Assembly (NCBI RefSeq): GCF_002873335.1
Contig: NZ_MCUW01000015.1
Span: 135,018 to 199,017 of the forward strand
Origin: Vibrio sp. 10N.286.49.B1
GTDB lineage: Bacteria; Pseudomonadota; Gammaproteobacteria; Enterobacterales; Vibrionaceae
Length of the DNA: 64,000 nucleotides
Direction of reading: 5' to 3'
Position 1 is the first letter of the stretch; the number at the start of each line of letters is the position of its first letter. The notes below the pieces were generated by a model. It was not told the origin of the DNA. It saw nothing but the letters and a program-made list of their open reading frames with translations, and made no database searches. A program made the translations under genes and the position numbers. Of this stretch, positions 4,924-63,512 are shown piece after piece.

Positions 4924-5661
4924 ATGGCTATGATCAGCTACACCCCCCCCACTGACCCTTGGATTGACATTGTCTATGAGGACGAGGATATCCTTGCCGT
5001 GAACAAACCATCAGGGTTGTTATCGGTACCAGGACGAGCAGAAGAACATTACGACAGCATGTGGAGTCGCTTACATGCCGAGTACCCTGATATTCAGGTG
5101 GTACACCGCTTAGACATGTCAACTTCTGGGTTGATGTTGTTGGCAAAAAACAAACCGGCAGAGCGGTCAATTAAGAAGCAATTTCAATACCGACTCACTC
5201 ACAAGGTGTATTATGCACGCGTTTGGGGAACCCCAGAAAACAGTCAGGGCCTGATTGATGAGCCGTTAATCTGTGATTGGCCAAATAGGCCAAGGCAGAA
5301 AGTCTGTTATCAAGATGGAAAGCCATCGCAGACGTATTACCAAGTGGTTGAGGTTGAAGATAAAACCAGTATTGTTCGCTTGTTTCCTATCACGGGTCGC
5401 TCCCATCAACTGCGTGTTCATTTATTGGCAATTGGGCATCCGATTGTGGGTGATGAATTTTACGCACATGAGGAAGCGATGCAGTTCTCAGAGACGTTGG
5501 GTCTACATGCCAGTGAGCTCTCCTTCTATCATCCAGAGAACTTAGAGCTGACGACTCTCTTTGTGCCTTGTGATTTTTACCCTCAAGCGACGGAAATGGT
5601 GATTGAACACTTTGACCCCGCACCGGTTTTACCGGATTATAAGACATTGCCTAAATGCTAA
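4924..5661 (+). CDS. rluA: Dual-specificity rRNA/tRNA pseudouridine synthase RluA
   Basis: RluA converts U746 of 23S rRNA and U32 of several tRNAs to pseudouridine. The protein is 245 residues and carries the family catalytic motif VHRLDMSTSG, in which the Asp is the nucleophile, near residue 65, and the later motif GRSHQLRVHL. There is no S4 domain, which fits RluA rather than RluC/RluD. I chose the ATG at 4924; an in-frame TTG at 4912 would add four residues and neither start has a strong ribosome-binding site. The dehydrogenase gene follows after 46 bases, so the two are probably co-transcribed. Confidence 0.93.
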   Translation: MAMISYTPPTDPWIDIVYEDEDILAVNKPSGLLSVPGRAEEHYDSMWSRLHAEYPDIQVVHRLDMSTSGLMLLAKNKPAERSIKKQFQYRLTHKVYYARVWGTPENSQGLIDEPLICDWPNRPRQKVCYQDGKPSQTYYQVVEVEDKTSIVRLFPITGRSHQLRVHLLAIGHPIVGDEFYAHEEAMQFSETLGLHASELSFYHPENLELTTLFVPCDFYPQATEMVIEHFDPAPVLPDYKTLPKC

Positions 5662-61290: not shown

Positions 61291-61990
61291 AAGCTACCTC
61301 TTAGTATTAATCTCCTTGCGGAGCCTTTTAAGTACCATATTCCAAGGCAGCATAACTATGATTTGTTTCTCATTTGTTTCGTTAGCATGAATGTTTTATG
61401 CCAAATTGAACTCAATCTCACAGTTTTAATTTATTGAGTTGTTTAAAAAATAATCGTTTAACTCACATAATGAAAAAGAATTGTCTTAGCAAGATTGTTA
61501 ACGTGGATGGCGGGATGATGGATGGGTGTGCCGAATACGCTGAGCGAAACATTCTCATTCGCCAAGAATGATTAAAAAACATGTGATGCCGTAAAATTCA
61601 CTCGACCTCCGATGGACAAAGGTTTACTAGGAAATGTCAGTATAAAATCAGGTTTGATTGCTATGCTTACTAATTGTTACTGGTAAGCAGCGTTTTTGAT
61701 GATAGTTGGTAGTGCAATTGTTGCGGCAACTGTTAAGGGAACGTGATGTTAAGGTGAAATAAAGGCAGATATAAGTGCAGTTGCGTATTGATTTTTGCTG
61801 AGCATCCCTGCAAAATCCGCTCCGTCAAATACGATGTCGAATTGTATTTCGTTCCTAATGGGTGAGAAATACAAGCTAAGTTGCCGTGAAAAACAGTGAA
61901 TTAATCAAAACCACACGGATGGGTATAACCTCAGCAACTTAGTCAGTACAGGAAGTACTGCCGACGCTCTAATTTTAAAGAGGTTTTAAA
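61291..61990. other. 700-base region upstream of the Na+/alanine symporter
   Basis: The gap has no recognised gene. The 5' part (61291-61500) contains the DUF3545 promoter. The last 200 bases hold a chain of helices ending at the symporter start, listed as a separate candidate leader. An 11-nt-loop hairpin TTTTGC/GCAAAA at 61793-61815 may add to it. Confidence 0.55.
61842..61984 (+). promoter_or_regulatory. Structured leader, candidate riboswitch of the symporter
   Basis: Three perfect helices lie in a row: TTGTATTTC/GAAATACAA (61842-61850 with 61866-61874), CTAAGTTGC/GCAACTTAG (61876-61884 with 61934-61942, enclosing CGTG/CACG and a GGGT/ACCT hairpin), and CAGTAC/GTACTG (61944-61960). The segment AACCTC (61927-61932), inside the second domain, is exactly complementary to the Shine-Dalgarno region GAGGTT at 61980-61985, so it could switch between the hairpin and ribosome-site blocking. 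It does not match the glycine-riboswitch pattern. The class is unknown to me. Confidence 0.45.
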
Positions 61991-63433
61991 GTGACAGACG
62001 TAATTAGTTTAATGAACGATCTTCTTTGGGGATCGATTCTGGTTTATCTACTCGTAGGCGTAGGGATATATTTTACAGTTCGCCTTGGGTTCATTCAGTT
62101 CCGCCATTTTGGTCACATGTTTAGTGTGCTAAAAAATAGCCGAAAATCCGATGCTGCTGGTATCTCATCTTTCCAAGCACTTTGTACTAGTTTAGCAGCA
62201 CGTGTGGGCACCGGTAACATGGCTGGTGTCGCCGTTGCCTTGACATTTGGTGGCCCTGGTGCAATTTTCTGGATGTGGTTAATCGCGATGCTTGGTATGG
62301 CAACGTCATTTGCAGAAAGCACATTGGCACAGCTGTACAAGACTCGTGATGATGACGGTAACTACCGTGGTGGTCCGGCGTACTATATGGAGAAAGGCCT
62401 GGGGATGCGCTGGATGGGCGTATTGTTCTCAGTGTTCTTGATTGTCGCTTTTGGTCTTGTGTTCAATGCGGTTCAAGCCAACGCCATTGCGAATGCCATG
62501 CAAACGGCATTTGGTTTTGAGCCTCTGTACGTGGGCATTGTTATTGCTCTGATTTCTGCGTTCGTCATCTTTGGTGGCATTCGCAAGATTGCCCGTACGG
62601 CTGAACTGATTGTTCCAGTGATGGCGCTTGCCTACCTTGTGCTGGCTTTTTACGTTGTTTTCATGAACATCGAGAAAGTGCCAGAGATTCTGGCGTACAT
62701 TTTTAAGAGTGCGTTTGGTCTGCAAGAAGCCGCTGCTGGTGGCGTGGGTTATGCCATTGCACAGGCGATGATTCAAGGCATTAAGCGTGGCTTGTTCTCA
62801 AATGAAGCCGGTATGGGTTCTGCGCCTAATGCGGCAGCGTCGGCAACACCATATCCACCACACCCTGCGTCACAAGGTTACGTGCAAATGTTGGGTGTCT
62901 TTGTGGATACCATTGTCATTTGTTCTGCAACGGTTGCTATCATCTTGATGTCTGGTGAATATGTTCCTCACGGTGAGGTCACTGGTATTGAACTGACACA
63001 GCGTGCATTGAGCTCACAAGTGGGCGATTGGGGCGGCATTTTTATTGCGGTCGCGATTTTCTTCTTCGCCTTTACTTCAATCATTGCTAACTATTCTTAT
63101 GCAGAGACGAACTTGATCTTCTTAGAGCACAATCATAAAGCAGGACTCGGTCTATTCCGTCTTGTTGTGCTAGGTATGGTACTGTTTGGTTCGGTGGCTA
63201 CGCTTCCTATGATTTGGGCGCTCGCCGATGTCTCGATGGGATTGATGGCGTTAGTTAACTTGGTCGCCATCATTTTGTTGTCGGGCATTGTGGTTAAGCT
63301 TGCGAAAGACTACAACCAACAGCTTAAAGCAGGCAAGGTACCGACCTTCAATGCTGATGAATACCCTGAGTTGAAATCTCAGTTAGAACCAGGGATCTGG
63401 GATAGCAGAGAGAGCGCTGATAAGACGAAATAG
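61991..63433 (+). CDS. Na+/alanine symporter, AGCS family
   Basis: The 480-residue protein has about ten membrane helices and the AGCS signature GTGNMAGVAVALTFGGPGAIFWMWLIAMLGMATSFAESTLAQ near residues 75-115, with GGVGYAIAQAMIQGIKRGLFSNEAGMGSAPNAAASA near 255. It imports alanine and perhaps glycine with Na+. The start is GTG with AAAGAGG 6 bases upstream. A structured leader precedes it, so control in cis is likely. Confidence 0.93.
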   Translation: MTDVISLMNDLLWGSILVYLLVGVGIYFTVRLGFIQFRHFGHMFSVLKNSRKSDAAGISSFQALCTSLAARVGTGNMAGVAVALTFGGPGAIFWMWLIAMLGMATSFAESTLAQLYKTRDDDGNYRGGPAYYMEKGLGMRWMGVLFSVFLIVAFGLVFNAVQANAIANAMQTAFGFEPLYVGIVIALISAFVIFGGIRKIARTAELIVPVMALAYLVLAFYVVFMNIEKVPEILAYIFKSAFGLQEAAAGGVGYAIAQAMIQGIKRGLFSNEAGMGSAPNAAASATPYPPHPASQGYVQMLGVFVDTIVICSATVAIILMSGEYVPHGEVTGIELTQRALSSQVGDWGGIFIAVAIFFFAFTSIIANYSYAETNLIFLEHNHKAGLGLFRLVVLGMVLFGSVATLPMIWALADVSMGLMALVNLVAIILLSGIVVKLAKDYNQQLKAGKVPTFNADEYPELKSQLEPGIWDSRESADKTK

Positions 63434-63467: not shown

Positions 63468-63512
63468 AAGCCATGCAGGATTTCATTGAAGTTCATGCGT
63501 GGCTTTTTTTAT
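63468..63512 (+). terminator. Intrinsic terminator after the symporter
   Basis: AAGCCATGC / GCGTGGCTT (one G-U pair) around a 20-base loop, followed by seven T residues, ends transcription about 35 bases past the symporter stop. Confidence 0.88.

Follow-up and report, generated by a model that had tools for sequence, protein, structure and literature searches.

A conserved structured leader RNA upstream of the symporter gene agcS in Vibrio, a candidate cis-regulatory element

Introduction

Genes of the sodium/alanine symporter family can be preceded by regulatory RNA. The available part of PMC5829553 describes a glycine riboswitch in Streptococcus that lies upstream of a gene from this family and regulates it, shut-off occurring through transcription termination and mRNA stability. 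The agcS locus of Vibrio sp. 10N.286.49.B1 raises the question of what kind of RNA stands in front of such a gene there. A sequence-only reading of the window (the whole stretch of DNA analysed, 64,000 nucleotides) had proposed a new cis-acting RNA upstream of the symporter gene, and this proposal is supported both by covariation in relatives and by absence from Rfam. We describe the agcS leader as a real and conserved candidate for a cis-regulatory RNA, absent from Rfam and from the literature searched.

The agcS locus

The general features of the locus are shown in Table 1. The AgcS protein has a solved relative, 6cse, which is named sodium/alanine symporter AgcS (E 2.6e-94), and its nearest named orthologues among the best 80 of 536 are those of V. 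methylphosphonaticus and V. qingdaonensis, with 97% protein identity. The window genome contains four matches to the protein, the remaining three sharing 39–47% identity with it. A paralogous symporter gene in the same genome (40% identity) carries a glycine riboswitch aptamer (L003, positions 1263–1362; RF00504, 72.3 bits).

Three features go beyond the sequence-only reading: the closing helix P1, a predicted hairpin over the Shine-Dalgarno (SD) sequence, and the probable promoter at 61788–61816. The word TTGATTT is present within 300 bases upstream of agcS in 79 of the 80 orthologues (best 80 of 536), L017 having TTGCTTT in its place; the −10 element, compared by eye, is CAAAAT in the window versus CATTAT in most relatives. 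The GTCAAA at the inferred transcript start is common to nearly all leaders of the window type.

Upstream of the promoter, at 61731–61763, three direct repeats follow one another every 11 bases (TGTTAAGGGAA, CGTGATGTTAA and GGTGAAATAAA), and relatives appear by eye to be similarly arranged; we take this spacing to be reminiscent of ArcA sites. At the other end of the gene, a terminator-like hairpin with a T run can be seen at approximately 63470–63510, and the gene that follows it presumably resembles yaaA.

Table 1. Features of the agcS locus, in window coordinates.
Feature	Coordinates	Strand	Details
Probable sigma-70-type promoter	61788..61816	+	TTGATT, 17-base spacer, CAAAAT
Inferred transcript 5' end, unpaired, GTCAAA...	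61824..61834	+	7 bases 3' of the -10 element; start site inferred
Match to model R2	61829..61967	+	99.2 bits, E 4.3e-23; window outside the R2 seed
P1, 5' strand (predicted)	61835..61839	+	R2 helix 1; minimum free energy (MFE) fold of the leader from inferred start to start codon
P2 hairpin	61842..61874	+	TTGTATTTC 61842-61850 with GAAATACAA 61866-61874, 9 bp
P3 arm	61875..61943	+	CTAAGTTGC 61876-61884 with GCAACTTAG 61934-61942, 9 bp
P4 hairpin, GGA in loop	61944..61960	+	CAGTAC 61944-61949 with GTACTG 61955-61960, 6 bp
P1, 3' strand (predicted); alternatively lengthens the SD hairpin	61962..61966	+	Pair probabilities
Predicted SD-sequestering hairpin	61963..61985	+	Core CTCT 61967-61970 with AGAG 61979-61982; SD GAGG 61980-61983
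agcS, sodium/alanine (amino acid) symporter	61991..63433	+	GTG start; TIGR00835 536.9 bits, cut-off 272.65

Predicted structure of the leader

Three perfect helices had been described as lying back to back at 61842–61960, and all three were found there; they are P2, the P3 arm and P4 of Table 1. P1 is predicted to close them into a four-way junction just upstream of the agcS SD, and 98.3% of its cells are paired in the combined alignment of the two leader types R1 and R2 introduced below. Several unpaired positions are conserved across the 12 window-type leaders: GTTC..AA in the P2 loop is unchanged, TGAAAA in the interior of the P3 arm is invariant, and the GGA of the P4 loop is kept in 11 of the 12. 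P4 itself shows a compensatory change: where the window has GTAC/GTAC, L012 and L013 both have GCAC/GTGC.

The span proposed in the sequence-only reading folds with an MFE of −40.3 kcal/mol versus −27.9±3.7 for shuffled sequences (z −3.36; one of 200 shuffles as low), and the window leader taken from its inferred start gives z −2.9. Folding energies are mostly ordinary, with z at or below −2 in 15 of 80 distinct leaders. The case for the structured leader is one of covariation and conservation, not of folding energy.

Orthologous leaders and covariance models

Orthologous loci were taken from named genomes, using the best 80 of 536. Their leaders fall into types, and 42 of these 80 (best 80 of 536) belong by motif to a single one, R1, the commonest in Vibrio. 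Misaligned loops caused a first automatic consensus fold to miss most of the helices. The seed of model R1 consists of 26 leaders, nine of the 35 rows of alignment A3 having been dropped with the P3 region judged misaligned; these nine later matched R1 in an alignment fitted to that model. All 40 leaders given to R1 were matched, the other two of the 42, L028 and L029, standing outside that set. Two further leaders, L145 and L146, are divergent R1 members scoring 51.6 and 44.7 bits. The P1 letters of L145 differ yet pair (CGCAGTA/TACTGCG), and its P2 is ATAAA/TTTAT.

Model R2 represents the window type and was built on nine leaders. Its seed excluded the window, L012 and L013 (gap shift) as well as L017, and all four matched it nonetheless. 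Six named relatives, L012 to L017, are matched by R2, with L014 to L016 in the seed and L017 the weakest (E 1.8e-5). The R2 run left out L081, L083, L086 and L088, four leaders that were covered by R1 and by the joint model R3. Alignment A7 was fitted to R2, and 10 of the 35 sources given to it, all R1-type, had no match.

R2 also reaches into the R1 type. Among 23 R1-type leaders given to it, none of them in its seed, it matched 13, all at the homologous place, and missed 10. Eight of these matches have E < 0.001 (L027, 29.9 bits; L084, 29.7; L072, 27.7; L034, 26.7; L049, 26.3; L048, 25.1; L038, 24.5; L021, 23.9), and five further ones score 16.7–20.1 bits; matches at other places reach at most 12.7 bits. 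In the reverse direction R1, run with filters off, gives the window 5.3 bits only (E 0.079 in 301 bases); this match is correctly placed and ranks first of four. These cross-matches suggest that R1 and R2 leaders constitute one family.

Beyond the two types the models reach less far. R3 extends to V. anguillarum, V. ordalii and V. maerlii with E values of 2e-4 to 6e-4. Applied to 33 divergent loci, it gave E < 0.001 at the right place in three (L088, L076 and L075), was at the right place with E 0.45 in L039, and found nothing at the right place in the remaining 29, among them L010, which is not from the 80. Twenty-nine of the 80 orthologue leaders (best 80 of 536) have no match to any model at E < 0.001. 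The Aliivibrio orthologues L053, L057, L068, L080, L081, L083 and L086 have leaders of a different make-up, in which one can see by eye a 3' hairpin and a long outer helix, formed in several of them by CTAATCTT/AAGATTAG; none of the seven is matched by R3. Another leader type of its own, with a GAATGGT/ACCATTC-like helix, is seen in L044, L047, L078, L087 and L091, a group formed by V. comitans, V. breoganii, V. ezurae, V. inusitatus and V. halioticoli.

Covariation and conserved unpaired bases

Compensatory changes in orthologous leaders, which the sequence-only reading had named as a check, are present in the R1 seed, in the enlarged R1 set and in the combined set. In the R1 seed 98.3% of 754 cells are paired and 11 of 29 pairs show double changes; none of 500 shuffles equals it in any of the five covariation measures, and sliding the partner strands by one to three bases leaves only 27–36% paired. 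With the R1 set enlarged to 42 distinct leaders, 96.3% of cells remain paired, 17 of 29 pairs change on both sides (0/500 shuffles), and double changes occur in 134 cells versus 35.8±5.4 in shuffles. P2 is near-constant in these 42 leaders, four of its six pairs never varying, and covariation therefore says nothing about it.

For the window type the covariation is thin, because P1 and P4 are constant within the R2 seed: 95.0% of cells are paired, and the double changes at 2 of 25 pairs are reached by 53 of 500 shuffles. When R1 and R2 leaders are combined (n=25), 90.5% of cells are paired, 20 of 25 pairs are double-changed, and the covariation score is reached by none of 500 shuffles; this alignment was fitted to R2 and leans towards it. 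The number of pair types in the combined set is not above shuffles (124/500), and P2 pairs in 81.7% only.

Four unpaired elements show no variation, or conservation of at least 90%, across the 42 distinct R1 leaders: TTGAC in the loop of P3b, and GGA at three places, namely in the interior of P2, upstream of P4 and within the loop of P4. P1, P3 and P3b vary in their letters while these stay fixed, a pattern that looks aptamer-like. The loop word TTGAC might form a pseudoknot with GTCAA at the 5' end, both words being present in 40 of 41 R1 leaders, where the strands are near-constant; TTGAC occurs in none of 7 R2 leaders and in 5 of 32 others. The agcS leader thus has the conserved, covarying structure in a 5' leader that a riboswitch calls for, weakly so in the window type alone. 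A conserved unpaired core is likewise found in R1 and in the window type, with cores that differ between the two, which is odd for one ligand.

Genomic distribution

R1 matches 102 of 196 Vibrio genomes and R2 matches 11 of the 196, always once per genome, and none of the R2 genomes is in the R1 list. All 46 genome matches that were checked (35 of the 102 for R1 and all 11 for R2) end 20–24 bases upstream of an agcS start codon. The structure, its position and its link to a single gene are all conserved. R2 and R3 were searched within Vibrio and R1 more widely: across the family it was found in 32 of 150 genomes, exclusively in its own genus out of 13 genera, and across the order in 16 of 295, of which 15 are of its own genus and one is a chance match. 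The latter (G037, 28.2 bits), the R1 match outside Vibrio, was rejected; it lies inside a 555-residue frame that by eye has the look of a sensor kinase with a receiver domain. Linkage to one gene and restriction to Vibrio among 150 family genomes make for a narrow distribution for a riboswitch.

Comparison with Rfam and the literature

Comparison with the Rfam covariance models, also suggested in the sequence-only reading, yields no family for this leader. The window has no match in Rfam 15 at the gathering threshold. With E values up to 10 allowed, positions 61400–62100 give only the snoRNA-family HgcG on the opposite strand (E 3.1), and the V. harveyi leader gives only the unrelated Afu_298, also snoRNA-family and on the opposite strand (E 6.5). 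For 19 orthologue loci at the gathering threshold the only match is V_AS5, downstream of the gene in L039; this is an antisense RNA (5373–5497, minus strand, 100 bits) lying 3' of agcS in V. aestuarianus.

The signatures of the glycine riboswitch had been reported as absent from the leader, and this agrees with the model RF00504, which matches neither the window leader nor that of V. harveyi (E up to 10) nor any of the 19 orthologue loci (gathering threshold) and does match the paralogue in the same genome. The two systems are alike in being leader RNAs in front of sodium/alanine symporter genes, as seen in that paralogue and, in the available part of PMC5829553, in Streptococcus. They differ in that the agcS leader has no Rfam match, is organised as one predicted four-way junction and has other conserved bases. 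A leader that senses the co-transported ion is conceivable in principle, by analogy with the Na+ riboswitch (DUF1646 motif) described in the available part of PMC9337991; unlike that motif, the window and V. harveyi leaders have no corresponding Rfam match at E up to 10, and a term search of the main text of PMC9337991 returned neither symporter nor alanine. The symporter is likewise not mentioned in PMC2864571, as far as a term search of that source extends. No description of an agcS leader RNA and no alanine riboswitch were found in the literature searched, outside which lie subscription journals and a 2017 survey. The survey reportedly presents 224 candidate structured RNAs.

A predicted hairpin over the Shine-Dalgarno sequence

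The segment AACCTC at 61927–61932 had been read as an anti-SD element opposite GAGGTT at 61980–61985. The two are indeed exact complements, but a role as a conserved SD switch was rejected, AACCTC being present in 3 of 12 window-type leaders and its pairing with GAGGTT having a probability of 0.0 in the predicted ensemble. The SD is instead predicted to lie in the local hairpin of Table 1, which in the window can be extended by GAC 61963–61965 pairing with GTT 61983–61985. The CTC and GAGG of this hairpin are invariant in all 35 aligned R1 leaders. The SD region as a whole has a mean paired probability of only 0.42–0.57.

The extended hairpin and P1 compete for the same bases, and the predicted outcome in the window depends on the length of the RNA. 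When it ends at the start codon, P1 pairs have probabilities of 0.67–0.98. With 15–60 coding bases added P1 falls to 0.02–0.07, and the SD hairpin reaches 0.93–0.96 in its core and 0.70–0.86 in its extension (0.93–0.94 and 0.70–0.81 with 30 coding bases). With three coding bases an alternative hairpin, 61972–61979/61985–61992, prevails at 0.64–0.71.

For RNA that stops at the start codon, prediction gives a P1 of at least 3 expected bp in 40 of 41 leaders of type R1 and in all 7 of type R2. When coding sequence is added, P1 is predicted to be lost in the window and L012, and partly in L013, among the 7 of type R2, and in one of the 41 of type R1; loss in so few argues that a P1/SD switch is not a rule of the family. 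L079 and L089 are examples of R1 leaders whose P1 3' strand could pair with bases downstream of the SD. When P1 pairing was simply compared with shuffles, 38 of the 80 distinct leaders reached p ≤ 0.05, and the 5-bp window-type P1 was not singled out.

Function of the leader and alternatives

We favor, with about an even chance of being right, the explanation that the agcS leader is a new structured cis-regulatory RNA restricted to Vibrio, most likely an orphan riboswitch that controls translation in response to a substrate of AgcS. The four-way junction would begin approximately 10 bases downstream of the inferred transcript start and end at the SD region. The ligand would be a small molecule, probably one of the amino acids that AgcS transports (alanine or glycine, for example), and its binding would stabilise the junction together with P1; P1 so stabilised would set whether the hairpin holds the SD, with control presumably exerted on translation. 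Physiologically, one would expect the substrate of an importer to switch the importer off. For the window, such an OFF direction is not supported by the predicted competition: P1 and the extended SD hairpin are mutually exclusive there, so a ligand stabilising P1 would free the SD. A more specific proposal, which we put forward tentatively and think rather unlikely, is a new class of amino-acid riboswitch, possibly the first for alanine, that is confined to Vibrio and evolves fast, the cores of sister clades differing on the same four-way scaffold in front of the same gene.

The same conservation has been weighed against other functions. CsrA represses translation through GGA near the SD, and mRNA leaders repressed by it carry GGA in hairpin loops near the SD, as the agcS leader does; the leader could therefore be a folded RNA to which a protein binds, with CsrA the first candidate. 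The three GGA sites of R1 (in the P2 and P4 loops and upstream of P4) are invariant or nearly so, the P4-loop GGA is present in 11 of 12 window-type leaders, and R1 leaders average 3.8 GGA versus 2.9 in shuffles. Conservation of GGA throughout the orthologues, as expected of a CsrA target, was not found, extending to R1 and 11 of 12 R2 leaders only, and the other 32 leaders have no excess (mean 1.5 versus 1.89 in shuffles). Conserved bases also go well beyond GGA, with TTGAC in R1, GTTC..AA and TGAAAA in the window type, and the junction itself, unlike in CsrA-repressed leaders; we consider a CsrA site improbable. A leader-peptide attenuator, encoded by AUG-GAN-GCN-UGA in R1 and by a 13-codon frame in the window, is hardly credible. 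Of the 42 distinct R1 leaders, 31 have the short frame, which includes an alanine codon, intact and 11 have it broken; that of the window type is present in only 4 of 12, and neither appears by eye to be preceded by an SD. Neither frame is conserved throughout its type, and upstream peptides were rejected.

It is also conceivable, if somewhat doubtful, that the leader is conserved and binds no ligand, its structure serving stability or handling by Hfq or RNase, so that it protects the mRNA or acts as a source or target of small RNAs. Fast divergence, seen in the 29 of 80 leaders (best 80 of 536) that match no model, and linkage to one gene only would fit this, and a small RNA from the malK 5' UTR is known in Vibrio according to the available part of PMC8265627. 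Fixed unpaired bases and compensatory helices directly upstream of the SD suit a sensor better. We give very little credence to a highly diverged glycine riboswitch. It would be in keeping with the shared symporter family and the RF00504 match (72.3 bits) at the paralogue in the same genome, and the available part of PMC6944388 gives transport proteins as the targets of every one of the 37 tandem glycine riboswitches that one study covered in Vibrionaceae; the missing RF00504 matches in the window, V. harveyi and the 19 orthologue loci, and an architecture of one four-way junction, argue against it.

Implications

If the riboswitch explanation is correct, an RNA responding to alanine, or to a different substrate of AgcS, would be new. 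With more than a hundred natural variants of the leader available, the idea of a sensor is directly testable. The agcS locus also shows clearly how the core of a structured leader turns over within one genus, with the promoter, the position and the target gene remaining fixed.
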